Assembly (NCBI GenBank): GCA_002682825.1
Contig: NOKP01000069.1
Coordinates: forward strand, 1,289 to 65,288
Direction of reading: 5' to 3'
Length of the DNA stretch: 64,000 nt
Source of the DNA: Neonectria sp. B-13
Lineage: Eukaryota > Ascomycota > Sordariomycetes > Hypocreales > Nectriaceae
Part shown: positions 13,014-64,000 of the stretch, one piece after another
Numbering within the stretch: position 1 is the stretch's first letter
Layout of the letters: each line of letters begins with the position of its first letter
Position numbers and translations under genes: made by a program
The notes under the pieces: generated by a model
Database searches by the model: none
What the model saw: the letters and a program-made list of their open reading frames with translations, nothing else
What the model was told of the DNA's origin: nothing

Positions 13014-16000
13014 ATTTAAAGGTTATAGTAGAATAGTAAGTTAATTAATCTAGCCTATTAAAGGGATTAATTAATGCACTTTTAAGCTACTACTATTAAA
13101 TATAAGGAAAGTAGAAAGATAATAAGAATTAAAAAAGAAAAAGGATTAAGACTTCTCTAAAAAGACTTTAGACCTATAAACCTAAAAAAATAGTAATAAA
13201 TTAATCTAGTAAAAAGGGAAATATAAGGCTTAATTAAGACTATCTTAAGAAGTAAGATAATATTAGATACTTAAACTCTAAACTATACTATTTACTATTA
13301 TACTTATTCTTCTACTCTATAAGTTCTAAAGGAAAATAGAGTATACCTAAACTCAAATAGATCTTATAGTATAATATTATTAGATTTCTATAATTATAGA
13401 GATTCTTTATAAGAATATAAGTATTATTTCCCTTTATTAAGCTATAGGTAGAGAGAGAATATATATTAGCTTGTATAATAGGAAGGTATTACTAAGATAA
13501 TTATTATATGGTTTCTAATAGAGGATAGGTATCTAGCTACTCTAGCTTTAATAACTCTTTATATTATAAGAAGTTAGAAGCTAAGGGAAAAGAAGGAAAG
13601 GAAGGATTTATTAAGAAAGAGAAGGAAGAGATAAAAGATTAATAAGTAGGCTAAAAAATATTAAGAGAATTAACCTACTTAGAGAGATTATTATAATAAC
13701 TATAAAGATAGACTATCTAAATTGAGCAATTAACTTAATTTTTATTCTATATTTTTATTTATTTATTATTCATTTTATTCTTTAGTTACTTTCTTATTTT
13801 ACTAAGAGAGATATAATAATAACTAAGCTTTTATTTTAGTATAATTAGTAAAGGCTATATTTAGAGGAAAGAATTACTCTCTAATAAGTAAGGATTCTAT
13901 AGATAGAAAACTAGATTTTATTACTACTATTAGAGGAAAAGGAAGAAAGAAGAGAAAGAAGGTATTTTATATAATACCTATAAGGATAATACACTAGAAC
14001 CTAAACTAATTAGATAAATATATAAAGTTATTATTAGTACCTATTATACTCTTATATAAGGACTCTTTATTAATCTAAATACTAATTAAATCTAATACTA
14101 AGATTAATAAAATAGGTATAAAGCCTTTAGATATAATAGAGAGAGGAAAGATAAGTAAAGAACCTAATGCCTTTTTCCCTATTTATATGTTTAATTGTAT
14201 CTTTAAGAGAACTAATATTATTAGTTACCTAAGGATATTTAAGAACTATATTAAGGGATAGATTTACTTAAATAAAAAGAAGGCTTAACTAATAATATAC
14301 TTTATCTATAAGGATATTAGAATAAAGGTACTAAAAGCCTATAAAAGTAGTACCTAGAAGATAATTAAGGCAAAGCTTTAGGAAGATTTTAAGAAAGGAG
14401 ATAAAGAATAATAGATCTAATCCCTCTAGAAGGTCCTTAAGATAAACATTCAATCTATAAGGAATGTAATAAACAAGAAGATTCTTACCTAGCTTAAGAC
14501 CTATAAAGAGTTATATAATACCCTTAATAATAGTGGAAAGTTTAAGGAAGGAAATTCTTATACTATCTTCTATACTCTTTTCTATAAAGTTATTATCTAG
14601 GTATATTAATAGAAGAATATCCTAATCTAAGAATTATAATCTAAGCCTTATAATATAATAGTTAATCTTATCTTATGCTTATTAGAATAGGACTAATCTT
14701 TTAAAGATCTAATTAAGGAACCTTAAGAGAGAGAATTAGATTAGGATAAATAACCCTCTAAGAAGGATATAAAACTAAGAATCTAGCCTCTAAATAAGCT
14801 AAACATAGATATAGTAATTAACTTTCTTACTTAAATAGTCTAAAATATAAGTATTAATATTTTAAAGAGATATAAGGACTTAAAGGTATACTTTATAGTT
14901 ATTCTCTAAGGGAATCTTAATAAGCAAAGGTTTTTTAACCCCTCTATTAATAGTAACTATCCTATGTACATAGGATCCTTTATAGTAAATAACTAGGATA
15001 TTCTTATTAATATTAGCTATAGGTAGAAATAGTTAAAGTATTTCTATTACTATATTATAGATTTCTTTCTAAACTAATACTATAAGTTGAAAAAGGATAA
15101 GGAATCTAACTATTATAACTTTGACTTAGAAGCCAGTATAGCCTAGATAGGATAAAGAGAAGCTATTCTCCCCCCTAAGCTTATTTAGAAGATAGGATTC
15201 CTTAGAGGAGTTAAGAAACTTATTATTATATAAATAAGAAAGTTCCTAAAGTTACTTACTATAAGATTTCTTAATAGATTAATATTTAGATCTACTATCT
15301 AAAATTAGAACCCTAATTAGGAAGAGTAAGACTTAGTAATTAACTTTATAAAGAGAAGTTAAGACTTTCTATTTAAAGATATAATTATTAATAGAACTAG
15401 TAGAAGAATAGAGCTTTCTAAAGAGGACCCTTTAGTTAATAGGATAATAAAATCTAATATTATTCTAATCAATAAAGATAACTATAATAAATCCATTAGA
15501 ATCTTAAATAATAATATTACTTTTAATATAGCTATAACTAAGAGGCAAAGGATAAATAAGAAGCTAGAAGAAGCTAAGTAAAGCTAGCCTATTCTTATAG
15601 TAATCCTTAGGATCCTTAAATAGATAAACCTAGAAGATTAAAAGATAGCTAAAGCTATTATAAAGAATAGACTTAAAGGTAACTCTTATTTAACCTTATT
15701 AATTAAGAATAGAGCAGTCTTAAAGCAAAGGATCCTAACTATAAAGATTAAAGTTACTATTCCCTAGATTATTATAAATAACTTTAAGTTTAGATAATCT
15801 ATAATAAAGGAATTAGCTAATCTTACTAATAGAGTTATAAAGACTATCTAGATAAATCTTAACCTAACCTATAAGATAAAGAGGTCTAAGGAGGTTAAAA
15901 TAAATAATATTATAAAATAGATTGACTTAAGCTTCTTTAATGCTTATTTTAATGAATTATCTTAGTAGTATAGAATTAATTCTATTATAATTAGTTAAAG

Positions 16001-16185
16001 GAAATTACTTATAAAATCCTATAATAACTTCTAGCTTACTCTAGGAGACTATCTAGTGATAAATAGTAACTTAATGATAAAGGTCTCCTATAGGAAGAAG
16101 GTTAAAAGACCTAATCTAGAAGTACTAAATGAGATAATTATATAAGTTAATTTAACCTTAATTTAACCTTAGGATAGTAAGATAC

Positions 16186-16742
16186 TGTGGCAGGGGCGAA
16201 GGACTAATTGGGCTAGCTGATTGCTAGCAGGGATATAATTGGGTGTGGAAGGGGAGGGGCAGCCATAAGGGAGGTTAAGAAGGGAAGGAGGAAAGGGGTC
16301 TTTTTCTTTGGAGCATCATCATTAAGAGAGACCAGAGACTCAAGAGCTTCTTACTGCAGAGAGACAAGAGATATGAGCTCATTGAGCTCAAAGCTCTAGA
16401 CTTTGTCTTTGTTTTCTAGGTTTTTATTCTGCAATTTTACATTCAAAGTCATCACTCAATTCCAGGTTGAACCTCTATCTTCTACAACGCCAATTGCCAA
16501 GCCGACGGTAGGCTATTTTGATGCCTTACTAACACTCTTTCCCGCTTTCGACTTGACAATCTACCTCATGAGATGCTTTCCTATTAGGAGGTACTAAACA
16601 CTAGACTGTCTGACCATATACGTGCTGTCTGGTGTAGCTTCAGGCTGACCAACTGAGACGCCTATGCAACGCATTTCTATGTACCTCCCTAAGGAACTGT
16701 CATCCATTTGGGGTATTGTTTCTTGTCCCTTTCCGCTGCCAA
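16186..16742 (+). mobile_element. Nested solo LTR, nearly free of RIP
   Basis: Same family as the Gypsy LTRs but much richer in G+C. Terminal inverted repeat TGGCAG/CTGCCA. Its flanks GATAC (16181-16185) and AATAC (16743-16747) differ by one RIP-type change and suggest a 5-bp target duplication. The internal region of the older element resumes right after it. It therefore arrived later as a solo LTR, or as an element that then recombined to one. Confidence 0.65.
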
Positions 16743-19700
16743 AATACTCTTATTATACTAAGATCTTTTAAGGCTATAAGTAAGACTTAGGAATCCTAAT
16801 AGTTATACTTAGGAAGCTATTATTAATATAGAAATAGAAGGGAATATTATTTCTAATAATATTATTAAGATTAGTAAGCTTAATATTTAACCTATTAAGA
16901 CTAAGACTACTTCTTTCTTAAAGGACTATATTATAATAGTAAGAATAGTTAAAGTTAAAGTCTATTTAGATAATATCTTTATTGATTAAAAGATATATAT
17001 AATCTTAATCTCTATAGTGTTAATTCCTTTTATCTTAGGGATGCTTTTTATTAGAAGTATAAAGATTACCTTTAACTATACAATTATTCCTAGAGAGATA
17101 TTAATAAGCTATTAATTAGGAAATATTAAGATTATATCCTTAGTTATAGGAGGAATTAGATAGGAATATTTAGTTACTACTTAAGAAGTACTAAAAAGGC
17201 CCTATTAAGTAGGAAAGTTCCCTTTAAACTAGAAAGAATAAATATCTATAGTTTAAAAGAGGATAATATTAAGTATCTTATAAGATATATTAATAAAAAG
17301 ATAGCTTAAAAAGTCTTTAAGATTATTCTTAAAGACTAAATAAAAAAGAATAATCTAATAGTAACTAAAGTAGAAAAAGTATAATAATTAAGATTAGAAG
17401 TTAATTATAAGAATATAACTATATAGGTTAATATAATATATAAAAGGAAGGTAGATAAGATCTAGCTAAAGGATAATATTCCTTTTAATGGATTTATACT
17501 AGAAGAAGACTTGTTCTAAAGGGAGAAGAGGTAGGAAGAAGTAAAAGAGGACCTAGAGTACAATTTACCTTATTCTAACTATATTATACTTAAGTTCTTA
17601 AAGATTAAGAAAAGCTTTAAGCTCTTTAGGGAGAAGCTTAAAGTGATTATAGATTAAACAAAGGATACCCTTAGGGATATAGAAAGGGATATCCTCTATT
17701 AGATCCTTTTCAACTGAGAAGAAGCATTATCCTAGACCTTTAAGGAAAAAGAGGAAATTAACCTAAGGGTTATACCTCCCTAAGTCATTAAAATCATACT
17801 CTATATTACTTAGTATTATAGAAATATAGTAATTCCTTATAGAACTAAGAAAAAGGTTATTAATCTTCTAAAAACCTAGCTAAAGAATAAGCTTATTAAG
17901 GAAAGTTATACTTCTTATAGAAACTATTAGATGCTTATAGCTAAGAAAGATAGAAGGTTATACCTTATTAACTTAGCAAAGTAATATAATACTTATACTA
18001 TTAGAGATAGTATAATTCCTCTAGGGATAGATAACTTCTTAGCTGAATTTAGGATATATAAAATCCTTTCTATACTAGACTTCTTTTTAGGATATAATCA
18101 AGTAAAGCTAGCAGTAGAAAGTAGGGATCTTATAACCTTTAATATACTAATAGGTCTAATAAGACTATACTTACTATTATAAGGTACTATAAACTTAGTA
18201 GCTTAGTTTACTAGGATTATAATAAGGATCCTTTTTGACTTACTTCTAGATAAAACTAGGGCTTTCCTAGATAATATTAGTATTAAAGAACTAAAGACTA
18301 ACTATAGTAAGGAGAAAGCTCTTTCTAATATAAGAAGGTTTATCCTAGAGTATTTTATTAATCTTAATACTATCCTAGTTAATATTAAGCTAGCTAGTTA
18401 TATAATTACTATTAAGAAGTTAGCTTAATATTAAAAGACTGCTTTTATTATAAGGTACCTCTATAGTATAAGTAAAAGAAAGCTAATAGAAGAGAAAGTT
18501 ATTAAGATCATTAAATAGGTAGATTGTAAGACCTTAACTAAAGTAAGAGCATTCCTTAGTATTACTAGTTACTATAGAATCTAGATTAGAAACTATACTT
18601 GGATTATATAGCCTCTTACTAAGCTACTAAAGAAAGACTCTACTTAGGACTAGAGTAAGGACTAGTAGGCTGTAATAATAATACTAAAGGAAAAGATTAT
18701 ATTAGCTCTTATTCTTATAATCTTTAACCTTTTAGAAGGAGCTAGAAAAGTTATTTTAATAATTAATATAAGTATCTTAGGCTAAGGAGCTATCTTAATA
18801 TAGGTTATTTAAGGGAAATACTATCCTATAAGATTTAAATTAGGAACCTAGATAGATACTAAGAAGAAGTATAATATAATTAAGCTAGAGTGTAAAAGAG
18901 CTCTTTATATAATATAGTACTTATAGATATATATTTATAGTTATCTATTTACCTTAGAAATAGACTCTAAAGTACTAGTTAACTAGTTGAATAATTAGGT
19001 AAATAATATACTAGGAGCTATAATTATTAGATAGCTTAGCTATTTACTGCTTTTTGACTTTATAATTAAGTATATCCTTAGAAAGAAGAATACAGTTATA
19101 GATAGTCTATTAAGGAAGGGTTAGGGACCTTCTGACCTTTTAGACTAGAAAGCTAAAATAGATATTAAGGATGAAATTAATACTTATCTTAACCTTATTC
19201 TTCTTAGACCTAAAAACAATGCCCTTATAGATAACTATAAAGGTAAATAGCTTACCTTAGCTAATTATCTTACATTTCTATAAAGACTAAAAGGCATATT
19301 AGTAAAAGACTTTAAGAGACTAAGAGTAAAAGTAACTTAGTTCTTTATTAGGGGAGATTAGATCTAAAAGTAAGAACTAAGAGAAGGAGATAATCCTACA
19401 CTAGTTATTAATAATAATAACCTTTAAAAGCATCTTATAACTTTATATTATTATTATAAAGGCTATAAAGGATAGAAAGCTATAATAAAAATCATTTCTT
19501 AGTACTATTTTTAGTAAGGCCTAAGACACTCTTTAAAGACAATCATTCAAAAATGCTTAATCTATTAAGAATATATAATACAATAAATAACTAAATAGGC
19601 TAAGCTTACTACTCCTTAGTATTTAATAATAAAGATCCATATTAATAGATAGTACTTACCTCTTAATAAAAGCATAAAGTTCTTACTAAAAGCTAGATAT

Positions 19701-22439
19701 AATCTAATAGAATAAATTAAAGCTATAGCTATTAGTAATCTTATTATAGTTAATATTAAAAGATTTATAAAAAGGATTATTTACTATTATAGAATACTAG
19801 TAAAGATTATTATTAATAATAGAAGGGAACTTACTAAAGGGATCCTTAATAAGCTAAAAGACTTAAGCATTAAGATATTTAAAATCTCTTTCTATAACTC
19901 TAAGTCTAATAGGCTAATTGAAATAGGGTATATATTTATAACTAATTACTTTAAGAAGCTTAAAAGGCTAGGGAAATAGGTAGATTTAGTTAACTTAGCC
20001 CTTCTTATAGATAGGTTAGTAATCTAGGGATTATATAGCTGCTCTTCCTTCTAGCTCCTTTATAACTAAGAACCTATCCTTCCCCTTAAAGTTAAGATCC
20101 TAACTTAGAGACTTATTGACTAGGATAACATTAAGGATAAGAAAGATAAGATTCTAGTTAGAATATGAATTCTAGAGAGATATAAAGAGAATATTAAAGC
20201 TACTTAAGTAAAGGTTAAAGAATATTAATAAACCCTAGCTAGAAGAACTAATAAGTTAAATACCTTTAAGCTAAAAAAGATACTCTTATTACTAAGTAAT
20301 CTAGTCTTTTAGTATAATATATAAAACTATAATAATCTCTTTTTAACTATAAAGCTTAAGCTAAGATAGAAAGGACTATATAGGGTTTATAAAGCTCTTA
20401 TAGAAACTAAGACTTATAAGCTTAAGACTCTTACTAGAATTAAGCTTTTAGGGACCTATTATAGAGACTGGTTAAAGGCTTTTTAGAAGGATAATTAAGG
20501 CTAGTAGATAAGCCCTAATGATAAAGAAATAATAGGACTATTATCTAATAATAAGAATAAAGAATCTAATAAAGAAGTATCTTATAATATACCTTATAAG
20601 CTAAGTAAGGCAAATTCCTTATCTAATAACTCTAAGCTAAAGCTTATTATTTAATTATAAAAAGAGCCTAAAGGAGATTTTTAAGTCTATATTCTAAAGA
20701 TAACTATAAAAGCTAAAAGTTAATATATAGTAATTTAAGTATCTTATAAGATACTAGGGATATAGTATTAACTAAGGATAGTAGTATTACTATATAAAGA
20801 GGTAGGAAGAGGAGGAATACAATAGGGTTACTAGAGAAGATTGAATATACTATATCTATAAGGGAAAAGACCTAGAAATAACTATTTAGATTAAACTTTA
20901 TACCTACTATAAGACAAATGAACCTTATAGTAAAGGAAGAATAGGATAAAGAGAGCTTATCTAAAAGAGAAGAAAGTAATAATAATTAAGTAATAGTACT
21001 AAAGATTAGGTATTTACTACTTATTGCTTATTCTAAAGGGAAGAAGAAGTCTTTAGATAAGGGGAGGTATTAATCTAGTTAGCTAAAAAGCCTAATATCT
21101 ATCTTAAAGGGCCTTAGTAGAAACTAGAGTAGTCTATCTATAGATTTTAGTATTAGAAGAGCTATCTAATTTAGAAGAATACTTTAAGATAATATAAGGG
21201 TAAGAGTAAGGATTAAAGATATCTAAAGTAAAGGAGATTAATATATTCAGAATAATAGCCCTACTACCTAAAGGGAACTTCTAAGGACCCTCCTAATAAT
21301 CTAAAGCTAGGTATCTATAGAGGAACTTCTAATTATAATTAGAATAATTATACTAAATATAATTAGTATATTAGCTATTTATAAAGCTAGGAACTAAAAT
21401 ATAAGTATAAAAAGGCATTAGGATATACTTATTAAAGTAGGTAGTTATTAAAAAGTAACTATAGATATAGTAATAATATATAACTAGGTAAATAACCCTA
21501 ATAAAAGCAATAATAAAGACCTTAAAGAGATATAATTAAGAGAGGAGGTTAATAAAGAAGTACTTTTTAGGATAAGCCTAATCAGCTAAAATAAAGATAG
21601 ACTAAAGAGTATAAATTACTAAAAGCCCTATCCTAGAGGTAATAGTTAAATCATAAAAAGAAAGTTATTAAAGGAATTAAATAAGAAAGATTAAGTAATT
21701 ACTAGAAGAAGAAAATTAAATATTTAACTTAATATATAATAAGTAGCTAAGTTAATTAAGAGCCTAGAAACTATAGAACTAAACCTAGAATAACTTTAGG
21801 ACCTAAAGAAGTATCTTATTAGATTACTTAACCTAATAAAAGGAAGAAAAAGGAACTTACTAAAGTAAGAACTAAGTTAAGATGTAAAATTGAGAAGGGC
21901 TTAAGGAGAATGTTATTATAACCTTTTTAGTAGGTACTATCCTAATGATTGAATGAACTAGTATTAACCTAGTACTTAGTAAGATAATAGACATTTAGAA
22001 GCTTTAACTAAGAAAGACCTAAAAGGATAATAAGCTTATCTTAATAAGAAGCTATTATAGTTAGTTAAGCTATTAAAGGATAATAAGGAAGAAAGAGATT
22101 ATAGGAAATATAAGGGAATAATAAGTCTAGAAGGAAGAAAAGTAATATAAGAAGCATTAAGTATAAAGGTTTAAGCCTTAGGGCTAATCTAATAGGGCTT
22201 TATATAAGAGAGGAGAGTTTCTAAGAAATAGGTATTTAAGTTTACTATAATGAATAAAGAGAACTTAGTAAGAAGGTCTAAAAAATAAGGACTACTATTA
22301 CTATAATTTACTATTATAAAGAATATAGTACCTTATAATAAGGAAATTATTAATATATAATCTCTTAGAAATATCAATATATATATACTCTCTTTATACT
22401 CTAGCCCTAAGGAAAATCTATATTATAACTTAAGCCTTA

Positions 22440-24990
22440 ATACTATAATTTTCCTCCTTTTAAGTCTAAATTTCAATAAGAATCTTATTCCTTACTTCCC
22501 TATAATTAGACTGACTTTTAGAAGTATTTTTACTCTTTAAAATACTATAGTAATAGCTACTTCTAGAGAGAATACAAAGGAAAAGGAATAGTTCTACTGT
22601 ACTAGTAATAAGCTAATACTCTATAAAGGGATTATTTATAATAAAGAGGGCAAATAAAGCTTCTTATATTTAGAAGAGCTTATATCTAAGATATTACTTT
22701 ATTAGAACCTAATTAATTAATCAACTTTTTACTCTTCTTAACTTAATTAGTCTTACTAAAGAAATATAGGCCTAAAGTACTTAGCCTTAGGAGATAGAGA
22801 TATAATTAAAGCCTAGGTTAAGACTATTTAATCTTATTTAGACTTTAGTAAGAAAGACTTTAGCCTTTAGGGTAAGTATTATATAGATTTATAGGAACTA
22901 TTAAGTAATCTTTAGAATAAAGAAATATCTATTAACTTTAGCCTTCTTATGTTCTTATATCTAATGACTTATAATATAAGGGACCTAATTGCTATTACCT
23001 TAAACAGCCTTAATCTTAATACCTTTAAGATTAAAGCTAATAAATAGGAATAATTTAACTATTTAATTAAGCTTATTAGAAAGATTACTTTTATTATAAA
23101 AAACTAATTCTTCTTAGGATTCTAATTACTTTAAGAAACTTAATTCAACTAAAGATTTCTTATTAAGATTATCTACTTTATTAATTGGACTTATTGAATT
23201 ACTTATATCTAGGACTTAAAGGAAAAGTACCTCTATATCTTTAATACTCTAAAGAAAGAAAAGAAAGAATAATTTATAGTTCTTACTATTGCCTAAAGAG
23301 AGATTATAGCTCTTAATAGTATACCCTATGAATTCCTTATTTATAGAATACCTACCTTTTACTAAGATAGTTAGTAAGAGTATAACTTCCTTAGAATCTT
23401 TCTTATTATACTAGCTATCTAAGGGCTAGTAGGACTTATAAAGAAGTAGATAATAAAAAGTGGGATTGCTCTAAAGGAACTTATTGTTTAGGTAAAAGAG
23501 GAGATACTTAAAGGGACTGAATTTACTCTATGCTTTTATAACTAAAAGCTTAGTTGATTAGTAAAGGTAAAGAAGGATAATAAGAGAGCTAAAGCTTTTA
23601 ACTTAGATTAAGTTAAAAGTTTCTTTAGTTATACTATTATAAAGAAGCCAGGCATTAAAGACCTAAAGTATAGCCTAGGGAACTAGAATTATACTATTAA
23701 TTAGGTATCTAATATATACTATTAGCTCTTATTAATAGGCTAAAAGCTTTAGACCTTTAATATCTTTATTTATTATAATAGCTTTCTAACTATTATATAA
23801 TTAGGCCTTAAGCTTAATAAACTCTTAGATAACTACTAGCTTATTCTATATCCTATTATACCTTTTAGCAAAGAGATTTAAAGTTCTTTAATGTACTAAT
23901 TAGATATTAGTAAGCTTAAGTTCACTTTACTTTCTAATCTTACTAAAGCCTTTATTAAAAAGGGGTTTATAATTAATAATAGACTTCTTAAGTAGCCTAA
24001 AGATAAGCTTAGAAGTATTATCTCTTTTAGCTTAAGTAATTCTTAGAAGTAATTACTAATCTTAGTTCTTTCTTTATTTAGGAAATTACTAACTATAGTC
24101 CTTTTATCTAAGAAGTCTTTTATCTTAATCTTTTCATTTAGAAAGATACCTTTAATTATAGAGACTCTAATAAAGGATAATACCTTTATTAAAGGAATTT
24201 AATATAACTTACTTAGGTTAATATCTAAACTAGTAGAAGGAGTTAAGAGCATTAAATCTTTATAATTAATCTTACCTAAGATACCCTTAAGAGCTCTTAT
24301 AGTATTACCTAAGCCTATAAGGAGTAATGTTTTAATAAGGGATATGCTTAAAAGCCCTATAAGAAGTAATATCTTAATAAGAGATATATTACTAGCTCTA
24401 ATACCCTAAAGGACTTAGACTACTTAGATAGTAATTATATTTATAGTCTAATTTATTAATAAAGGTTTACTAGTCTATATAGATAATTAAAAGGTCTTTA
24501 AAGGAAAAGATTATTATCTTAGTATTATAATAAATACTAAAGTAAAGAAAATAACTATTAATACTAACCTAATAGACTTACCTTAGATTACTAATTAATC
24601 TATATTACTTATACTAAAGATAAGGTTTTATACTATATATATTCCTAAGGGTTTAATTTCTCTTGCTTAATAGAAAGGCATTATTGATTTTATATATAAT
24701 AATATTATCTCTCCTTCTATTATAAAGATCAGTTAGAAGGAATAATATTAATAGTAGGAGGTATAAAAGTAATAATACTTTAGAAGGGTTTATTATTCTT
24801 AGTTAAGAAAGTAGATATAGGATTAGGGAGGTAGATTAGAAAATGGATTTCTTTTGTTTTCTAATATTAGACTTTAAGAAGGTCTTATAAGATACTTCTT
24901 TACTATATATATATATTTCTTTAGTCTAATTTAGAAAGAGGAAGAAGTTCTAGTATTTATAATCTTATCCTAATTAAGGATAATTATTAG
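22440..24990 (+). pseudogene. Ghost reading frame 3' of pol in the Gypsy element
   Basis: One plus-strand frame reads through more than 2 kb with interruptions almost only at TAA/TAG (Q or W codons after RIP) and a few TGA. It has protein-like segments such as NLNTFKIKANK and KKPGIKDLKYSLGN, and a tandem-repeated IRSNVLIRDM/IRSNILIRDI pair near 24315-24395. It lies downstream of integrase and upstream of the 3' LTR, where envelope-like or accessory genes occur in some retroelements. I do not recognise the protein, and low-complexity A+T-rich DNA can mimic a frame. Confidence 0.35.
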
Positions 24991-25005
24991 ATTATAAGGG
25001 AGGTA

Positions 25006-25563
25006 TATAGTAGGAGTAAAGGACTAAGTGGGCTAGCTGATTGCTAGTAGGAATATAATTAGGTATAGAAGGAAAGGGGCAGCTATAAGGGAGGTTAAGA
25101 AGGGAAGGAGGAAAGAGGTCTTTTTCTTTTAAGGGAGTATAATTAAGAGAGATAAAAGACTTAAGAGATTCTTTCTATAGAGAGATAAGAGATATAAGCT
25201 TATTAAGCTTAAAGCTTTAGACTTTGCCTTTGTTTTCTAGGAGTTTATTCTATAATTTTACATTAAAAGTTACTACTTAATTCTAGGTTAAACTTCTATC
25301 TTCTATAATACTAATTACTAAGCTAATAGTAGGCTATTTTAATGCCTTACTAATACTCTTTCCTACTTTCAACTTAATAATCTACCTTATAAGATACTTT
25401 CCTATTAGGAGGTACTAAATACTAGACTGTCTGACCATATATACACTGTCTAGTGTAGCTTTGGGCTGACCAACTAAGATGCCTATACAATGCATTTCTA
25501 TATACTTCCCTAAGGAACTGTTATCTATTTGGGGTGTTATTTCTTGTCCCTTTCCGCCGCCAA
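25006..25563 (+). repeat. 3' LTR of the Gypsy element, unevenly RIP-mutated
   Basis: The first 400 bp carry dense C-to-T and G-to-A changes relative to 16186-16742. From about 25420 to the end it is close to the unmutated copy (CTGTCTGACCATATA, GGGCTGACCAACTAAGATGC), so the mutated tract ends inside this LTR. Confidence 0.8.
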
Positions 25564-25568
25564 ACTAT

Positions 25569-29600: not shown

Positions 29601-29716
29601 TCGAACAGGGTTAGCGTGGGGCCCCAGAGCAGGCTTGATAGTTCGCACTTACGAGGAAGGGACTTCGTTGTATCAGCAGAGCTGATACCTGGAGATTCCA
29701 TAGCTTCGCTTTGCAT
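26626..29716 (-). CDS. HET-domain (heterokaryon incompatibility) protein, 983 aa, left-arm copy
   Basis: My three-exon model on the minus strand is 29716-29232, 29174-27444 and 27361-26626. Intron 1 (57 bp) has a GTATAA donor, a perfect TACTAAC branch site and a TTCAAG acceptor. Intron 2 (82 bp) has GTTAGT and CTTAG. All joins stay in frame. Residues 1-195 are helical and resemble the N-terminal region of fungal C2H2/STAND-associated proteins. A Cys/His cluster (C251, C254, H265/H266, C270) follows. The HET domain starts near residue 365 with LSYQWG (369-374), WIDAICIDQ (413-421) and a WIIQE block (about 511). Residues 848-865 and 874-889 are two hydrophobic segments, likely membrane spans. 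The C-terminus has the family's GIVPLVLR and FEMVGECY motifs. HET proteins trigger incompatibility cell death. The gene is intact in both arms. Confidence 0.85.
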
Positions 29717-30019
29717 GCCGATATGATAAATGTTGCAGCTCGGTAGACGTTGTCGAAGAGGATGATGGAGATCAGAAGGAAAATATCTTTATTGCAGGTT
29801 AAATCACACCTCAGCCGAGTCGATAGTTTGATGCTTATGGATGGCTCAGTAACCTATGCCAGAGTTTCCTGATTCCCCTCATGCTGATTCACTGGGTGGG
29901 GTTAGTAGCACACAGTTGGCATGTGAAAGTAAGTAGCACACAGTTGACATGTGAAATGATCCAGTCTGATACCCAAACCATACTAGCGCCGATTCCCCTA
30001 ACATTCTGTCTCCCCCCGG

Positions 30020-49267: not shown

Positions 49268-52200
49268 ATGCAAAGCGAAGCTATGGAATCTCCAGGTATC
49301 AGCTCTGCTGATACAACGAAGTCCCTTCCTCGTAAGTGCGAACTATCAAGCCTGCTCTGGGGCCCCACGCTAACCCTGTTCGAAGTGGCCACTCCGTTGC
49401 CTCCCAGCGAGAAGGATTTGTATTTACAATGTAGCTCGTGTCTGGAAAACCTCCGGCGTTGTGTGGATGCCGTAGAGGTCGCTGCCAAAGGCGATCACGC
49501 ATTCACACGGACTACCTTGAAACTTGCTCAAAGTAGAGTCCATGAGCATCGACTCCGTCTCGCAATATGGATATCAGATTGCACAGTCGGGAACGGAACC
49601 TTTTCCGCGATTCCGGCAGAAAGGGAACCAACTCTCTTCGATGCTCTAGTGGCAATCCTCAAGAGAATCAATGAGGAGTCGGACACTATTCTGAGAAACG
49701 TACAAGAGATGGGAACGAAAGCGGGACAATCTATCAAAGGCGTTGACGAGAAGTATAATAATATTAGCCATTTAACGACACGGAAGTTACTAACTTCTTG
49801 AAATTCAAGTGCATCTATTTCTCAATCTGAACAAAGAATCAACCATGCATGCGATAACCTCACCTTTTCCCTCTACGAACTCGCTAAGCTCCAGAGCTCG
49901 GTCCAGATGGCCACAGCAATCCATATTCGGAAAGGATGCGAAGCGGCACTTTATGAGGCCATAAAGAAAGTTCAAGATAAGTCAGGTCAAGGAGAGTCTC
50001 ACCCTGAAGATGATAGCTTTTCCGATTCAGGCGTCACTGACGACAGTGCTTCGCACGTGTCTGGTGATGAGAGATGTTCACAATGCCAATCATGGCTCCC
50101 ATGGTATGCCTTGTCTCACCACAGGTTGGCCTGCCGGGAGGTCGTACAGGACGATATTCAAGAAACGGCGTCAGTAAGCAAGGTCAAAAGCAGGGTCCAA
50201 ATGCGGCCATTCAATTATCTAGAGCCTGGGCCTGTCACCAGTGGCTTCTACGACAACAACGCACTGGGTCTCGGGACATTCGATGTTCGTGTTCTACATC
50301 TTCACCGCGGATCCGGCCAGGATGACATTACCTGTGCCTTGGAGAAAAGGCTACTGCCTCCGACAGCAGCAGCTTCGGCCGAGAAACCAGGCGAGCAATC
50401 TCAGCAACCTGACCTGGACTATAAAACGTTATCGTACCAATGGGGCAACCCCAGGAGGAATCTGCGCAAGATCCAGTGCAACGGAGTTGGCTTCCTCGTC
50501 ACAAGCAATCTCTACTCTGCCCTGGTTCATCTTCGTGATCCAGGTTCCGACATTAGTCTCTGGATTGACGCCATCTGCATCGATCAGAAAAACGATAAGG
50601 AGAAAGAAAACCAGGTTCAGAGGATGGGTGAGATATATCGCCGCTCGAAGTGCACAATTATCTGGCTTGGGGACGGCAGCTTTTTGTCCCGAGAAGCGTT
50701 CCGGGCTTGCTCGATGTCGGCGATAGCCTCAAAGCCTCAACACAGCCCTGACCCATCGCCTTCATCAAAATTCTCACGATCATGGGATCCTTTGGGTCTT
50801 CTTCGCCCATTTCTAATTCTACTTCTCCTACGGCGTTCATACTTCACTCGCGTATGGATTATTCAGGAGGTGGCGCTCAGCCACAGTATCGAGGTCGTAT
50901 GCGGGAACGACAGAATATCCTGGGACGACTTTGCAATTGGCGCGGCCACCGTACTTGTTGCTGCCCTCGGCAGCAAGAGTGCTGCAGGTTTAGAAAACAT
51001 TTTGGTAGCTCGAGCCCTGTTGCCGTGGGCAGCTCGGAGTGGACGGATCGATCAGGCCTGGAACTTCCAGACCATTACGCAGAGAGGATTGCCCCAGTCC
51101 AGGGACATATTGTTTGTAGCAGCTCTGTTCAGGCGCAGTCACGCCACGGACCCAGTTGATAAACTCTTCGGTCTTCTGGGACTTTGCGAGCAGATCCGAG
51201 AGGGAAGCACGTACGGCATTTCGCCAATGTACTCACGGGATGACCCCTACCACAGAAACCGGGCCTACATCAGCACGAGCAGAACCATTTTATCCTCCCA
51301 GAATAGTTTGCACTTATTTTCTACAGTTAATCGCCGGCCGCCAAATAACTCCGATTTCCTCCTTAGGTTCTACCGGAGAATTTGGCTCAGGGGAAGACAA
51401 ACTGAACCCCTTCCCACGTGGGTGCCAGACTGGAGTGACACGGGCAGCGTGGCGACGGCCCTAAGCCTCATGCTGCCTCAGAATAGTGCATTGGATATGG
51501 AGCACGATACAGAATACCACTTTGATTCATATCAGCTGAGGTTAGTTTAGCCTCGGTGTAGGGACAAACACGGAGGTCGACATATTGCCACCTAGAGTAC
51601 GATTATGACTGACGTGTCTTAGTTCACCCCCAGATTCGCAACATATCTGGCTATCAGGACGTTTTCTAGATGATATTGTAGAGCTTGGCGAAGTCTGCAA
51701 TACAGAGAAGGCTCAAAGCAGCATCTGGTTCAGTATCAGGTATTCTTTCACCATGTCGGAAAACCATCGCTTTGAGGTCTTCGGCAAATGGGAGAAACAA
51801 TTCCGATCCTCTACACCAGGCGATTCCTTTTGGGAGAACTTCATTTCCACCGTGACCTGTGGGTCGAGCAACACTTACGACGAAGGCAGCGTAATGCGGC
51901 TTCTCGCTGACTATCGTTCGAGAAGTGTGCGCAATTTACCCACACTGGTCAAGAGCATTTTCGCGTATCTTTTTATACTACCTCTTGCAATCACCGCTTG
52001 GACAGGAAGTGGTATTTTGGAGCGAATCATGCTATACTGGTGCTTCCCAGTGGTGGCTTTTTCCTCGATGTGGTATTGGTGCTTTCAGCTCATGCCAAAT
52101 TTGATATCTCCGGAAGGCTGGGAAGACTTTGACAACATGGAGTTGAGGAGATTGACCAGGCTGAAATCTGGATCCTTGGCTCTTGTCCCTGAAGCGTCTT

Positions 52201-52358
52201 GTATTAAGGACCAGATTTGGAGTTGCAAGGGTGGAATCGTGCCGTTGGTTTTGCGATCTAATGGCGATGACTTCGAAATGGTTGGCGAGTGCTACTCGGC
52301 TATGGCAACGGCTGTCGAGCGGCCGAAGTCTGCTGATGGTGTGATTCGTTTGATCTAA
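49268..52358 (+). CDS. HET-domain (heterokaryon incompatibility) protein, 983 aa, right-arm copy
   Basis: Exons 49268-49752, 49810-51540 and 51623-52358. The branch site TACTAAC of intron 1 is at 49788-49794, 15 bases before the acceptor. Exon 2 alone contains an ATG at 49907 that would give a shorter HET protein, but the upstream exon joins in frame through 33 extra codons and keeps a helical domain, so I prefer the longer model. Likewise the apparent stop just after the HYQLR-like end of exon 2 lies in intron 2; splicing restores SGRFLDDIVELGEV, a typical HET C-terminal motif. Identical to the left-arm copy, so this arm adds no independent evidence of selection. Confidence 0.85.
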
Positions 52359-53415
52359 CTTATTCGGGGCGGCGGAATGAGCAGCACTTTGCTTATCACG
52401 CCCTACTACTCTTCTATTATTAATTGTCGTGTGCCCTCAATTGTCGCCTGCCCTGTAAAAATATGGCTGCCCTCTAAACCCGGTCTATTTCCGTCATTAG
52501 TTATACTAACTCAAGATGATGCCCTCATTGCTTTTTCTTGATTACTCATTTATACGTCTTAACGCGTCTCGTCGCGTCTTATCGTAGTACTTGTGTTATA
52601 GCATGCTTCCTTGCTCTTCAATGTACATTTTTGTTCTTGAAGAAATCATCTTGAATCACTCCCAAGACAGCCCAATCATGGATCTTAATAACCTCTTTTA
52701 TCACAATTCCTTATAGCGGATTATTATATATAAGAAGTATAAAACTATACTATAAACTGATATTTCCCATCATATCCACCTCTACCATAATCCAATGCAT
52801 ATTCATAAATCTACTATAATTTAGTCATTTATATAGACCTTCAATCATCTGCCATTGAGATAAGACCCAGATGAGATCTACAAAGCGGTCCGACCATTGC
52901 TAGGTGCTGCGCCTATTCGATTTCTCAGTATGTTCTATGATGGCATTAGTTATCAGCTCTGCGAGGATGACACAAGCCGCTATATCTGCTGAGGTCGCAC
53001 AGCTATTGAAGAACACCTACTGTACCAAGGGTGCACTGGATTTCGATGAAATACAACCAAACTGGTCCGTGCACGTTGTTATGTCCCTCTCGGATTTCAT
53101 CGAAATACACGTTTTTCGTCCGTGCACGCGATCGAGTCTTTGGACCCTATATACTCAAGCATGCACAATGGAAGTGTGCCGCATTTCCAATTCTACACCA
53201 ATCATAGCCTTTAGATCTCTAGCCCCATTTTCCAGTCTAGAAGTGTACTATACTTCCAGTCTAGGCATATTTAGCAAAAACGCAAAATGCGGCGCGTTTT
53301 TAATATAAAGGCCTATGCTATTCCTATAAAGTTCAATATAATATACTAAACTTTCTTATAAGGCTTGTTTGAACTATCTGTCTTAATAATAATATAATAT
53401 AATTTATTATACTTA
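52359..53415. other. Intergenic region downstream of the HET gene, right arm
   Basis: Mirror of 25569-26625. It holds the same hairpin and GTGCACGGAC repeats and no convincing gene. Confidence 0.45.
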
Positions 53416-53420
53416 ATAGT

Positions 53421-53978
53421 TTGGCGGCGGAAAGGGACAAGAAATAACACCCCAAATAGATAACAGTTCCTTAGGGAAGTATATAGAAATGCATTGTATA
53501 GGCATCTTAGTTGGTCAGCCCAAAGCTACACTAGACAGTGTATATATGGTCAGACAGTCTAGTATTTAGTACCTCCTAATAGGAAAGTATCTTATAAGGT
53601 AGATTATTAAGTTGAAAGTAGGAAAGAGTATTAGTAAGGCATTAAAATAGCCTACTATTAGCTTAGTAATTAGTATTATAGAAGATAGAAGTTTAACCTA
53701 GAATTAAGTAGTAACTTTTAATGTAAAATTATAGAATAAACTCCTAGAAAACAAAGGCAAAGTCTAAAGCTTTAAGCTTAATAAGCTTATATCTCTTATC
53801 TCTCTATAGAAAGAATCTCTTAAGTCTTTTATCTCTCTTAATTATACTCCCTTAAAAGAAAAAGACCTCTTTCCTCCTTCCCTTCTTAACCTCCCTTATA
53901 GCTGCCCCTTTCCTTCTATACCTAATTATATTCCTACTAGCAATCAGCTAGCCCACTTAGTCCTTTACTCCTACTATA
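53421..53978 (-). repeat. 3' LTR of Gypsy element, right arm
   Basis: Mirror of 25006-25563, with the same sharp change in RIP density near 53564. Confidence 0.8.
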
Positions 53979-56900
53979 TACCTCCCTTATAATCTAATAA
54001 TTATCCTTAATTAGGATAAGATTATAAATACTAGAACTTCTTCCTCTTTCTAAATTAGACTAAAGAAATATATATATATAGTAAAGAAGTATCTTATAAG
54101 ACCTTCTTAAAGTCTAATATTAGAAAACAAAAGAAATCCATTTTCTAATCTACCTCCCTAATCCTATATCTACTTTCTTAACTAAGAATAATAAACCCTT
54201 CTAAAGTATTATTACTTTTATACCTCCTACTATTAATATTATTCCTTCTAACTGATCTTTATAATAGAAGGAGAGATAATATTATTATATATAAAATCAA
54301 TAATGCCTTTCTATTAAGCAAGAGAAATTAAACCCTTAGGAATATATATAGTATAAAACCTTATCTTTAGTATAAGTAATATAGATTAATTAGTAATCTA
54401 AGGTAAGTCTATTAGGTTAGTATTAATAGTTATTTTCTTTACTTTAGTATTTATTATAATACTAAGATAATAATCTTTTCCTTTAAAGACCTTTTAATTA
54501 TCTATATAGACTAGTAAACCTTTATTAATAAATTAGACTATAAATATAATTACTATCTAAGTAGTCTAAGTCCTTTAGGGTATTAGAGCTAGTAATATAT
54601 CTCTTATTAAGATATTACTTCTTATAGGGCTTTTAAGCATATCCCTTATTAAAACATTACTCCTTATAGGCTTAGGTAATACTATAAGAGCTCTTAAGGG
54701 TATCTTAGGTAAGATTAATTATAAAGATTTAATGCTCTTAACTCCTTCTACTAGTTTAGATATTAACCTAAGTAAGTTATATTAAATTCCTTTAATAAAG
54801 GTATTATCCTTTATTAGAGTCTCTATAATTAAAGGTATCTTTCTAAATGAAAAGATTAAGATAAAAGACTTCTTAGATAAAAGGACTATAGTTAGTAATT
54901 TCCTAAATAAAGAAAGAACTAAGATTAGTAATTACTTCTAAGAATTACTTAAGCTAAAAGAGATAATACTTCTAAGCTTATCTTTAGGCTACTTAAGAAG
55001 TCTATTATTAATTATAAACCCCTTTTTAATAAAGGCTTTAGTAAGATTAGAAAGTAAAGTGAACTTAAGCTTACTAATATCTAATTAGTACATTAAAGAA
55101 CTTTAAATCTCTTTGCTAAAAGGTATAATAGGATATAGAATAAGCTAGTAGTTATCTAAGAGTTTATTAAGCTTAAGGCCTAATTATATAATAGTTAGAA
55201 AGCTATTATAATAAATAAAGATATTAAAGGTCTAAAGCTTTTAGCCTATTAATAAGAGCTAATAGTATATATTAGATACCTAATTAATAGTATAATTCTA
55301 GTTCCCTAGGCTATACTTTAGGTCTTTAATGCCTGGCTTCTTTATAATAGTATAACTAAAGAAACTTTTAACTTAATCTAAGTTAAAAGCTTTAGCTCTC
55401 TTATTATCCTTCTTTACCTTTACTAATCAACTAAGCTTTTAGTTATAAAAGCATAGAGTAAATTCAGTCCCTTTAAGTATCTCCTCTTTTACCTAAACAA
55501 TAAGTTCCTTTAGAGCAATCCCACTTTTTATTATCTACTTCTTTATAAGTCCTACTAGCCCTTAGATAGCTAGTATAATAAGAAAGATTCTAAGGAAGTT
55601 ATACTCTTACTAACTATCTTAGTAAAAGGTAGGTATTCTATAAATAAGGAATTCATAGGGTATACTATTAAGAGCTATAATCTCTCTTTAGGCAATAGTA
55701 AGAACTATAAATTATTCTTTCTTTTCTTTCTTTAGAGTATTAAAGATATAGAGGTACTTTTCCTTTAAGTCCTAGATATAAGTAATTCAATAAGTCCAAT
55801 TAATAAAGTAGATAATCTTAATAAGAAATCTTTAGTTGAATTAAGTTTCTTAAAGTAATTAGAATCCTAAGAAGAATTAGTTTTTTATAATAAAAGTAAT
55901 CTTTCTAATAAGCTTAATTAAATAGTTAAATTATTCCTATTTATTAGCTTTAATCTTAAAGGTATTAAGATTAAGGCTGTTTAAGGTAATAGCAATTAGG
56001 TCCCTTATATTATAAGTCATTAGATATAAGAACATAAGAAGGCTAAAGTTAATAGATATTTCTTTATTCTAAAGATTACTTAATAGTTCCTATAAATCTA
56101 TATAATACTTACCCTAAAGGCTAAAGTCTTTCTTACTAAAGTCTAAATAAGATTAAATAGTCTTAACCTAGGCTTTAATTATATCTCTATCTCCTAAGGC
56201 TAAGTACTTTAGGCCTATATTTCTTTAGTAAGACTAATTAAGTTAAGAAGAGTAAAAAGTTGATTAATTAATTAGGTTCTAATAAAGTAATATCTTAGAT
56301 ATAAGCTCTTCTAAATATAAGAAGCTTTATTTGCCCTCTTTATTATAAATAATCCCTTTATAGAGTATTAGCTTATTACTAGTACAGTAGAACTATTCCT
56401 TTTCCTTTGTATTCTCTCTAGAAGTAGCTATTACTATAGTATTTTAAAGAGTAAAAATACTTCTAAAAGTCAGTCTAATTATAGGGAAGTAAGGAATAAG
56501 ATTCTTATTGAAATTTAGACTTAAAAGGAGGAAAATTATAGTATTAAGGCTTAAGTTATAATATAGATTTTCCTTAGGGCTAGAGTATAAAGAGAGTATA
56601 TATATATTGATATTTCTAAGAGATTATATATTAATAATTTCCTTATTATAAGGTACTATATTCTTTATAATAGTAAATTATAGTAATAGTAGTCCTTATT
56701 TTTTAGACCTTCTTACTAAGTTCTCTTTATTCATTATAGTAAACTTAAATACCTATTTCTTAGAAACTCTCCTCTCTTATATAAAGCCCTATTAGATTAG
56801 CCCTAAGGCTTAAACCTTTATACTTAATGCTTCTTATATTACTTTTCTTCCTTCTAGACTTATTATTCCCTTATATTTCCTATAATCTCTTTCTTCCTTA

Positions 56901-59900
56901 TTATCCTTTAATAGCTTAACTAACTATAATAGCTTCTTATTAAGATAAGCTTATTATCCTTTTAGGTCTTTCTTAGTTAAAGCTTCTAAATGTCTATTAT
57001 CTTACTAAGTACTAGGTTAATACTAGTTCATTCAATCATTAGGATAGTACCTACTAAAAAGGTTATAATAACATTCTCCTTAAGCCCTTCTCAATTTTAC
57101 ATCTTAACTTAGTTCTTACTTTAGTAAGTTCCTTTTTCTTCCTTTTATTAGGTTAAGTAATCTAATAAGATACTTCTTTAGGTCCTAAAGTTATTCTAGG
57201 TTTAGTTCTATAGTTTCTAGGCTCTTAATTAACTTAGCTACTTATTATATATTAAGTTAAATATTTAATTTTCTTCTTCTAGTAATTACTTAATCTTTCT
57301 TATTTAATTCCTTTAATAACTTTCTTTTTATGATTTAACTATTACCTCTAGGATAGGGCTTTTAGTAATTTATACTCTTTAGTCTATCTTTATTTTAGCT
57401 GATTAGGCTTATCCTAAAAAGTACTTCTTTATTAACCTCCTCTCTTAATTATATCTCTTTAAGGTCTTTATTATTGCTTTTATTAGGGTTATTTACCTAG
57501 TTATATATTATTACTATATCTATAGTTACTTTTTAATAACTACCTACTTTAATAAGTATATCCTAATGCCTTTTTATACTTATATTTTAGTTCCTAGCTT
57601 TATAAATAGCTAATATACTAATTATATTTAGTATAATTATTCTAATTATAATTAGAAGTTCCTCTATAGATACCTAGCTTTAGATTATTAGGAGGGTCCT
57701 TAGAAGTTCCCTTTAGGTAGTAGGGCTATTATTCTGAATATATTAATCTCCTTTACTTTAGATATCTTTAATCCTTACTCTTACCCTTATATTATCTTAA
57801 AGTATTCTTCTAAATTAGATAGCTCTTCTAATACTAAAATCTATAGATAGACTACTCTAGTTTCTACTAAGGCCCTTTAAGATAGATATTAGGCTTTTTA
57901 GCTAACTAGATTAATACCTCCCCTTATCTAAAGACTTCTTCTTCCCTTTAGAATAAGCAATAAGTAGTAAATACCTAATCTTTAGTACTATTACTTAATT
58001 ATTATTACTTTCTTCTCTTTTAGATAAGCTCTCTTTATCCTATTCTTCCTTTACTATAAGGTTCATTTGTCTTATAGTAGGTATAAAGTTTAATCTAAAT
58101 AGTTATTTCTAGGTCTTTTCCCTTATAGATATAGTATATTCAATCTTCTCTAGTAACCCTATTGTATTCCTCCTCTTCCTACCTCTTTATATAGTAATAC
58201 TACTATCCTTAGTTAATACTATATCCCTAGTATCTTATAAGATACTTAAATTACTATATATTAACTTTTAGCTTTTATAGTTATCTTTAGAATATAGACT
58301 TAAAAATCTCCTTTAGGCTCTTTTTATAATTAAATAATAAGCTTTAGCTTAGAGTTATTAGATAAGGAATTTGCCTTACTTAGCTTATAAGGTATATTAT
58401 AAGATACTTCTTTATTAGATTCTTTATTCTTATTATTAGATAATAGTCCTATTATTTCTTTATCATTAGGGCTTATCTACTAGCCTTAATTATCCTTCTA
58501 AAAAGCCTTTAACCAGTCTCTATAATAGGTCCCTAAAAGCTTAATTCTAGTAAGAGTCTTAAGCTTATAAGTCTTAGTTTCTATAAGAGCTTTATAAACC
58601 CTATATAGTCCTTTCTATCTTAGCTTAAGCTTTATAGTTAAAAAGAGATTATTATAGTTTTATATATTATACTAAAAGACTAGATTACTTAGTAATAAGA
58701 GTATCTTTTTTAGCTTAAAGGTATTTAACTTATTAGTTCTTCTAGCTAGGGTTTATTAATATTCTTTAACCTTTACTTAAGTAGCTTTAATATTCTCTTT
58801 ATATCTCTCTAGAATTCATATTCTAACTAGAATCTTATCTTTCTTATCCTTAATGTTATCCTAGTCAATAAGTCTCTAAGTTAGGATCTTAACTTTAAGG
58901 GGAAGGATAGGTTCTTAGTTATAAAGGAGCTAGAAGGAAGAGCAGCTATATAATCCCTAGATTACTAACCTATCTATAAGAAGGGCTAAGTTAACTAAAT
59001 CTACCTATTTCCCTAGCCTTTTAAGCTTCTTAAAGTAATTAGTTATAAATATATACCCTATTTCAATTAGCCTATTAGACTTAGAGTTATAGAAAGAGAT
59101 TTTAAATATCTTAATGCTTAAGTCTTTTAGCTTATTAAGGATCCCTTTAGTAAGTTCCCTTCTATTATTAATAATAATCTTTACTAGTATTCTATAATAG
59201 TAAATAATCCTTTTTATAAATCTTTTAATATTAACTATAATAAGATTACTAATAGCTATAGCTTTAATTTATTCTATTAGATTATATCTAGCTTTTAGTA
59301 AGAACTTTATGCTTTTATTAAGAGGTAAGTACTATCTATTAATATGGATCTTTATTATTAAATACTAAGGAGTAGTAAGCTTAGCCTATTTAGTTATTTA
59401 TTGTATTATATATTCTTAATAGATTAAGCATTTTTGAATGATTGTCTTTAAAGAGTGTCTTAGGCCTTACTAAAAATAGTACTAAGAAATGATTTTTATT
59501 ATAGCTTTCTATCCTTTATAGCCTTTATAATAATAATATAAAGTTATAAGATGCTTTTAAAGGTTATTATTATTAATAACTAGTGTAGGATTATCTCCTT
59601 CTCTTAGTTCTTACTTTTAGATCTAATCTCCCCTAATAAAGAACTAAGTTACTTTTACTCTTAGTCTCTTAAAGTCTTTTACTAATATGCCTTTTAGTCT
59701 TTATAGAAATGTAAGATAATTAGCTAAGGTAAGCTATTTACCTTTATAGTTATCTATAAGGGCATTGTTTTTAGGTCTAAGAAGAATAAGGTTAAGATAA
59801 GTATTAATTTCATCCTTAATATCTATTTTAGCTTTCTAGTCTAAAAGGTCAGAAGGTCCCTAACCCTTCCTTAATAGACTATCTATAACTGTATTCTTCT

Positions 59901-62241
59901 TTCTAAGGATATACTTAATTATAAAGTCAAAAAGCAGTAAATAGCTAAGCTATCTAATAATTATAGCTCCTAGTATATTATTTACCTAATTATTCAACTA
60001 GTTAACTAGTACTTTAGAGTCTATTTCTAAGGTAAATAGATAACTATAAATATATATCTATAAGTACTATATTATATAAAGAGCTCTTTTACACTCTAGC
60101 TTAATTATATTATACTTCTTCTTAGTATCTATCTAGGTTCCTAATTTAAATCTTATAGGATAGTATTTCCCTTAAATAACCTATATTAAGATAGCTCCTT
60201 AGCCTAAGATACTTATATTAATTATTAAAATAACTTTTCTAGCTCCTTCTAAAAGGTTAAAGATTATAAGAATAAGAGCTAATATAATCTTTTCCTTTAG
60301 TATTATTATTACAGCCTACTAGTCCTTACTCTAGTCCTAAGTAGAGTCTTTCTTTAGTAGCTTAGTAAGAGGCTATATAATCCAAGTATAGTTTCTAATC
60401 TAGATTCTATAGTAACTAGTAATACTAAGGAATGCTCTTACTTTAGTTAAGGTCTTACAATCTACCTATTTAATGATCTTAATAACTTTCTCTTCTATTA
60501 GCTTTCTTTTACTTATACTATAGAGGTACCTTATAATAAAAGCAGTCTTTTAATATTAAGCTAACTTCTTAATAGTAATTATATAACTAGCTAGCTTAAT
60601 ATTAACTAGGATAGTATTAAGATTAATAAAATACTCTAGGATAAACCTTCTTATATTAGAAAGAGCTTTCTCCTTACTATAGTTAGTCTTTAGTTCTTTA
60701 ATACTAATATTATCTAGGAAAGCCCTAGTTTTATCTAGAAGTAAGTCAAAAAGGATCCTTATTATAATCCTAGTAAACTAAGCTACTAAGTTTATAGTAC
60801 CTTATAATAGTAAGTATAGTCTTATTAGACCTATTAGTATATTAAAGGTTATAAGATCCCTACTTTCTACTGCTAGCTTTACTTGATTATATCCTAAAAA
60901 GAAGTCTAGTATAGAAAGGATTTTATATATCCTAAATTCAGCTAAGAAGTTATCTATCCCTAGAGGAATTATACTATCTCTAATAGTATAAGTATTATAT
61001 TACTTTGCTAAGTTAATAAGGTATAACCTTCTATCTTTCTTAGCTATAAGCATCTAATAGTTTCTATAAGAAGTATAACTTTCCTTAATAAGCTTATTCT
61101 TTAGCTAGGTTTTTAGAAGATTAATAACCTTTTTCTTAGTTCTATAAGGAATTACTATATTTCTATAATACTAAGTAATATAGAGTATGATTTTAATGAC
61201 TTAGGGAGGTATAACCCTTAGGTTAATTTCCTCTTTTTCCTTAAAGGTCTAGGATAATGCTTCTTCTCAGTTGAAAAGGATCTAATAGAGGATATCCCTT
61301 TCTATATCCCTAAGGGTATCCTTTGTTTAATCTATAATCACTTTAAGCTTCTCCCTAAAGAGCTTAAAGCTTTTCTTAATCTTTAAGAACTTAAGTATAA
61401 TATAGTTAGAATAAGGTAAATTGTACTCTAGGTCCTCTTTTACTTCTTCCTACCTCTTCTCCCTTTAGAACAAGTCTTCTTCTAGTATAAATCCATTAAA
61501 AGGAATATTATCCTTTAGCTAGATCTTATCTACCTTCCTTTTATATATTATATTAACCTATATAGTTATATTCTTATAATTAACTTCTAATCTTAATTAT
61601 TATACTTTTTCTACTTTAGTTACTATTAGATTATTCTTTTTTATTTAGTCTTTAAGAATAATCTTAAAGACTTTTTAAGCTATCTTTTTATTAATATATC
61701 TTATAAGATACTTAATATTATCCTCTTTTAAACTATAGATATTTATTCTTTCTAGTTTAAAGGGAACTTTCCTACTTAATAGGGCCTTTTTAGTACTTCT
61801 TAAGTAGTAACTAAATATTCCTATCTAATTCCTCCTATAACTAAGGATATAATCTTAATATTTCCTAATTAATAGCTTATTAATATCTCTCTAGGAATAA
61901 TTGTATAGTTAAAGGTAATCTTTATACTTCTAATAAAAAGCATCCCTAAGATAAAAGGAATTAACACTATAGAGATTAAGATTATATATATCTTTTAATC
62001 AATAAAGATATTATCTAAATAGACTTTAACTTTAACTATTCTTACTATTATAATATAGTCCTTTAAGAAAGAAGTAGTCTTAGTCTTAATAGGTTAAATA
62101 TTAAGCTTACTAATCTTAATAATATTATTAGAAATAATATTCCCTTCTATTTCTATATTAATAATAGCTTCCTAAGTATAACTATTAGGATTCCTAAGTC
62201 TTACTTATAGCCTTAAAAGATCTTAGTATAATAAGAGTATT

Positions 62242-62798
62242 TTGGCAGCGGAAAGGGACAAGAAACAATACCCCAAATGGATGACAGTTCCTTAGGGAGG
62301 TACATAGAAATGCGTTGCATAGGCGTCTCAGTTGGTCAGCCTGAAGCTACACCAGACAGCACGTATATGGTCAGACAGTCTAGTGTTTAGTACCTCCTAA
62401 TAGGAAAGCATCTCATGAGGTAGATTGTCAAGTCGAAAGCGGGAAAGAGTGTTAGTAAGGCATCAAAATAGCCTACCGTCGGCTTGGCAATTGGCGTTGT
62501 AGAAGATAGAGGTTCAACCTGGAATTGAGTGATGACTTTGAATGTAAAATTGCAGAATAAAAACCTAGAAAACAAAGACAAAGTCTAGAGCTTTGAGCTC
62601 AATGAGCTCATATCTCTTGTCTCTCTGCAGTAAGAAGCTCTTGAGTCTCTGGTCTCTCTTAATGATGATGCTCCAAAGAAAAAGACCCCTTTCCTCCTTC
62701 CCTTCTTAACCTCCCTTATGGCTGCCCCTCCCCTTCCACACCCAATTATATCCCTGCTAGCAATCAGCTAGCCCAATTAGTCCTTCGCCCCTGCCACA
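62242..62798 (-). mobile_element. Nested solo LTR, right arm
   Basis: Mirror of 16186-16742. High G+C for its surroundings and the same TGGCAG/CTGCCA ends. Confidence 0.65.
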
Positions 62799-64000
62799 GT
62801 ATCTTACTATCCTAAGGTTAAATTAAGGTTAAATTAACTTATATAATTATCTCATTTAGTACTTCTAGATTAGGTCTTTTAACCTTCTTCCTATAGGAGA
62901 CCTTTATCATTAAGTTACTATTTATCACTAGATAGTCTCCTAGAGTAAGCTAGAAGTTATTATAGGATTTTATAAGTAATTTCCTTTAACTAATTATAAT
63001 AGAATTAATTCTATACTACTAAGATAATTCATTAAAATAAGCATTAAAGAAGCTTAAGTCAATCTATTTTATAATATTATTTATTTTAACCTCCTTAGAC
63101 CTCTTTATCTTATAGGTTAGGTTAAGATTTATCTAGATAGTCTTTATAACTCTATTAGTAAGATTAGCTAATTCCTTTATTATAGATTATCTAAACTTAA
63201 AGTTATTTATAATAATCTAGGGAATAGTAACTTTAATCTTTATAGTTAGGATCCTTTGCTTTAAGACTGCTCTATTCTTAATTAATAAGGTTAAATAAGA
63301 GTTACCTTTAAGTCTATTCTTTATAATAGCTTTAGCTATCTTTTAATCTTCTAGGTTTATCTATTTAAGGATCCTAAGGATTACTATAAGAATAGGCTAG
63401 CTTTACTTAGCTTCTTCTAGCTTCTTATTTATCCTTTGCCTCTTAGTTATAGCTATATTAAAAGTAATATTATTATTTAAGATTCTAATGGATTTATTAT
63501 AGTTATCTTTATTGATTAGAATAATATTAGATTTTATTATCCTATTAACTAAAGGGTCCTCTTTAGAAAGCTCTATTCTTCTACTAGTTCTATTAATAAT
63601 TATATCTTTAAATAGAAAGTCTTAACTTCTCTTTATAAAGTTAATTACTAAGTCTTACTCTTCCTAATTAGGGTTCTAATTTTAGATAGTAGATCTAAAT
63701 ATTAATCTATTAAGAAATCTTATAGTAAGTAACTTTAGGAACTTTCTTATTTATATAATAATAAGTTTCTTAACTCCTCTAAGGAATCCTATCTTCTAAA
63801 TAAGCTTAGGGGGGAGAATAGCTTCTCTTTATCCTATCTAGGCTATACTGGCTTCTAAGTCAAAGTTATAATAGTTAGATTCCTTATCCTTTTTCAACTT
63901 ATAGTATTAGTTTAGAAAGAAATCTATAATATAGTAATAGAAATACTTTAACTATTTCTACCTATAGCTAATATTAATAAGAATATCCTAGTTATTTACT

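Follow-up and report, generated by a model that had tools for sequence, protein, structure and literature searches.

A perfect palindrome in a Neonectria contig as a probable product of assembly

Layout of the mirrored contig

The window, a stretch of 64,000 nucleotides, corresponds to G000:C93:1289-65288 in a contig of 80,271 bases (named C93), which belongs to an assembly of 60.9 Mb in 123 contigs. Positions below are those of the window unless a contig is named. The left arm (1..39342, forward strand) is one copy of a duplicated path; its exact reverse complement occupies 39642-64000 and continues up to the contig end. The left arm is followed by the 199-base end of the path (39343..39541, forward strand), which lacks a counterpart across the axis and consists of 2 local bases and 197 bases of a multicopy repeat (named S, 39345-39541). 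Behind a 100-N placeholder gap (39542..39641), which has counterparts of equal length at the axes of 16 other palindromes, the second copy of the path lies in reverse complement without its last 199 bases (39642..64000, reverse strand), and is very probably a false duplication. The left arm contains an open reading frame with a HET domain (27434..29077, reverse strand; PF06985, E=1.2e-30), whose apparent repeat, probably false as well, is placed by the mirror relation at 49907-51550 on the forward strand. An AT-rich relic (33698..37086, forward strand) has 81% identity over 3,389 bases to a stretch of contig C83 that adjoins S.

The original prediction held that positions x and 78984-x are complementary, and this relation holds without exception for the 24,359 pairs that run from 14984/64000 inward to 39342/39642, so that 14984-39342 (forward strand) is the part of the left arm that has its mirror inside the window. 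Position 14984 does not mark an arm junction but merely mirrors the window edge. The proposed minimum of 24.4 kb for the duplication is sound, and the arms continue beyond the window, with 39,342 bases each (C93:1289-40630 and C93:40930-80271). The centre had been described as a 100-N placeholder, which is indeed present at 39542-39641 but does not make up the whole centre, as the 199 unpaired bases at 39343-39541 are also located there. No mismatch was found among the compared bases of the two arms, which comprise all positions except C93:70000. The right arm stops exactly at the contig end and pairs there with the first non-N base, C93:1289, as C93:1-1288 consists of N. When a 1-kb arm probe was compared with the genome, two full-length copies, both in C93, and three partial matches of 55-90 bases were obtained, and chance is no issue as a source of the mirror match. 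As assembled text, the palindrome is genuine; as a feature of a chromosome, it very probably does not exist.

Recurrence of the layout in the assembly

At least 17 of the 123 contigs are composed of a sequence, exactly 100 N, and the reverse complement of that same sequence; the count is a lower bound, as the contigs examined are part of the 123. We directly observed in all 17 that the N run has a length of 100 and that exactly 199 bases beside the gap are missing from one of the two copies. Eleven of these palindromes have S at the axis, namely C93 and ten others in which S stands beside the 100-N run (C87, C68, C55, C117, C63, C50, C20, C1, C114, and C72). The other six (C38, C36, C41, C54, C59, and C112) came to light through mirrored match pairs, and their axes carry unrelated sequences, for example TTAATTAG repeats, ATT repeats, or a T run. 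Because these six further palindromes have axes without S, the repeat is not required for the formation of a palindrome. A fusion of chromosome ends, which was appealing while the spacer recurred at contig ends, was dropped after the six S-free axes had been found.

The arms were compared in full in C93, and in the other 16 contigs the comparison covered the axis, some far ends, and mirrored matches. Judged by geometry, an exact palindrome spans the whole contig in nine of the 17, the longest being 1.98 Mb. The far ends pair at 2,000 of 2,000 bases in each of the eight contigs tested for this length (C20, C68, C55, C114, C72, C117, C50, and C63), and at 400 of 400 bases in C38. The pairing sum of C114 is 1576202 at the axis but 1576193 at the far ends, so that a 9-base difference between its copies must lie somewhere in between, and the contig is a near-exact tenth whole-contig palindrome with arms of unequal length. 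Different branch choices or later editing could account for these 9 bases, which are the sole departure from perfect copying that we met and leave the rule of 100 N and 199 bases untouched. Besides the 17, C40 is a probable palindrome, as judged from mirrored match coordinates only.

Origin of the palindromes

The constant length of the trim is informative about its source. The trim is also 199 bases in C114 and C72, though S covers just 148 and 145 of those bases, respectively, and therefore it does not depend on the extent of the repeat. Direct comparison of C20 and C38 revealed that their first 199 bases are exactly common, after which the two contigs diverge. For the 14 ends with 196-198 bases of S, the bases of S and the bases before them that recur at another end add up to 199 in nine cases and to 198-201 in five. 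At the six ends where S spans just 98-148 bases, the sums are 100-151 and do not fit 199. A second exact copy of the outer arm end of C93 was not found, the best other match (in C51) having 98% identity. In a de Bruijn graph with K=200, two adjacent edges have 199 bases in common, and the 199-mer at the start or end of a contig tends to occur in another contig as well. The number 199 thus points to K-1 of such a graph, with a path joined to its own inverse. As a separate observation, a minority of ends lie about 150 or 100 bases into a repeat (C114, C72, C79, C84, C44, and C48 on the S side, and the starts of C36 and C41), which perhaps reflects other values of K.

We are close to certain that the palindrome of C93 is an assembly artefact. 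In the most plausible account, a path of a K=200 graph was linked to its own inverse, with the K-1 overlap trimmed off. The assembler would be a K=200 de Bruijn-graph program resembling DISCOVAR de novo. At position 39541, the path would have halted about 199 bases inside the multicopy repeat and, for want of an unambiguous true neighbor, would have been linked over a 100-N gap to itself in reverse complement. On output, the second copy may have lost its first 199 bases (K-1) as if they overlapped the first copy. The false self-link was presumably made by read pairs, perhaps inverted chimeric pairs, which may have won where the true neighbor was a collapsed repeat or absent. Among the options that the original prediction had left side by side, that of a scaffolding artefact is supported by the 100-N gap and the one-sided 199-base trim in all 17 contigs.

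Published descriptions of assemblers bear on this mechanism. According to passages of PMC4779211, DISCOVAR de novo writes exactly 100 N for gaps of unknown size, which are read-pair gaps, and its default k-mer is given as 200 in a part of PMC7301838; in these excerpts, both properties fit the palindromic contigs described here. Within the portions of the literature searched, DISCOVAR de novo included, no published account was found in which a path is joined to its own inverse. Supernova, as portrayed in sections of PMC5411770, adapts DISCOVAR, uses gap edges to join lines, and prints 100 N where a gap is bridged by read pairs. As a descendant of DISCOVAR that joins paths with a perfect 200-base overlap, it resembles the program sought, but with k=48 the k-1 overlap of its abutting edges is 47 bases, as against 199 here, and it was dropped as the direct source on this account (same sections of PMC5411770). 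A Flye-type scaffolder was considered and dropped owing to the 199-base trim. Contigs of 5-6 Mb are present in the assembly (C1 and C39). Since such lengths seem long for DISCOVAR de novo alone, a later scaffolding step is likely.

Three other origins were weighed. The first assumes long reads that fold back at natural DNA ends, as hairpins or as template and complement, so that the assembler or scaffolder joined contigs to themselves. Many axes lie at likely chromosome ends, and artificial palindromic reads have been documented after whole-genome amplification (excerpts of PMC6218980), which likewise lead to false inverted duplications in assemblies. The amplification palindromes of those excerpts, however, arise inside single chimeric reads, whereas in the present case a placeholder separates two copies of a whole contig (PMC6218980). 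Furthermore, a trim that is 199 bases long in every one of the 17 contigs and the 199-base start common to C20 and C38 resemble K-1 overlaps rather than those of long reads, and six axes are without S. We consider this origin very unlikely; in the earlier suggestion of a scaffolding or fold-back-read artefact, the scaffolding part is retained, and fold-back reads are unnecessary, as 199 equals K-1.

Even less probable is a real palindromic chromosome end, an isochromosome, or an arm fusion in the strain, for which the perfect arms of C93 and the subtelomeric-looking repeat S at 11 of the 17 axes could be taken to speak. A real palindrome offers no evident biological reason for 100 N and a one-sided trim of 199 bases in 17 of 17 contigs, six of them with unrelated axes, and this regularity contradicts the real palindrome or arm fusion that had been proposed for the locus. 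Instead of continuous sequence through the axis there are 100 N, with 199 bases on one side only, and instead of one or a few loci at least 17 of the 123 contigs have the same layout. Nine of the palindromes end exactly at both contig ends, with lengths of up to 1.98 Mb, and many perfect isochromosomes would be needed in one genome. Equally improbable are two near-identical haplotype contigs scaffolded end to end in opposite orientation, which would give near-perfect arms with a placeholder gap and could fit the 9-base difference in C114, but which are at odds with zero mismatches in the C93 arms (39,342 bases each) at the bases compared, with the lack of exactly 199 bases in one copy every time, and with arm ends that equal contig ends to the base in nine contigs.

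Self-joining of assembly paths, the preferred reading, has consequences for the use of this assembly. By geometry, the false duplication in the 17 contigs amounts to about 6.04 Mb, or 9.9% of the assembly. As these roughly 6.0 Mb (9.9%) are probably written twice, gene counts of the assembly are inflated, and its use for counting duplicated genes, for genome size, or for synteny would give wrong results. The caution raised earlier about gene-dosage claims was right, the duplication being false in our reading. A striking but false claim of a chromosome palindrome is thereby removed and the assembly is flagged. Assemblies of such a type can be checked by a simple test, that is, an exact run of 100 N with mirrored flanks, one of which is without 199 bases.

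The spacer repeat and its older copies

S is the start of a repeat that was found at no fewer than 20 contig ends or axes, with 196-198 bases at 14 or more of them and 98-148 bases at six more; this search scored 40 candidates out of 81, and the counts are lower bounds. S stands at the contig end in C83, C65, C73, C51, and C66, and four contigs end within it (C79, C84, C44, and C48). In six older copies compared with the young one, C>T or G>A accounts for 191 of the 215 counted changes. Three AT-rich blocks of the arm have TA/AT ratios of 1.57-1.61 and (CA+TG)/(AC+GT) ratios of 0.30-0.44. Judged from base composition and substitutions, the older copies of S and the AT-rich blocks of the arm have a RIP-like pattern.

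Searching with a 1.1-kb probe taken at the start of an older unit yielded at least 46 matches; 40 candidates out of 93 were scored, and a sequence present in both mirror copies counts as two. Orientation was judged in contigs of known length, which contain 43 of the 46 matches, and each of these 43 faces the contig end or palindrome axis closest to it. The three others lie in C53 and C123. The older units share their inner start base, and each is cut short by the next, head to tail (C79, C39, and C73). S looks like the invariant inner border of a subtelomere-like repeat unit. In a reading that we hold to be rather doubtful, such units would have been added repeatedly to chromosome ends from the same start base and pointing to the end, to be truncated by the next unit and then eroded by RIP.

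Directly inside S, C83:198-3000 encodes a fragment of a RecQ-type helicase, and it is to this stretch that the AT-rich relic of the window arm (33698-37086) has 81% identity. The fragment matches the DEAD family (PF00270) with 28.8 bits against a cut-off of 26, and TIGR00614 with E=3.8e-10, where a 62-residue piece reaches 39 bits against a cut-off of 219.8 for the full length. In the PDB, it matches chains of the RecQ family, with a best E=1.1e-4. Telomere-linked helicases of fungi are known by name. We tentatively raise the possibility, which we hold to be rather doubtful, of a mobile or recombining unit specific to chromosome ends, with a precise proximal boundary edged by S and linked to the RecQ-type helicase relic.

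No exact match to (TTAGGG)x4 was obtained in the readable part of the assembly, and a search of the assembly with TTAGGGTCAACATTAGGG gave no match. Telomeres maintained without telomerase were considered and dropped; the chromosome ends are taken as unassembled, and a telomerase RNA-binding domain (PF12009) is encoded at G000:C1:4390271-4390741.
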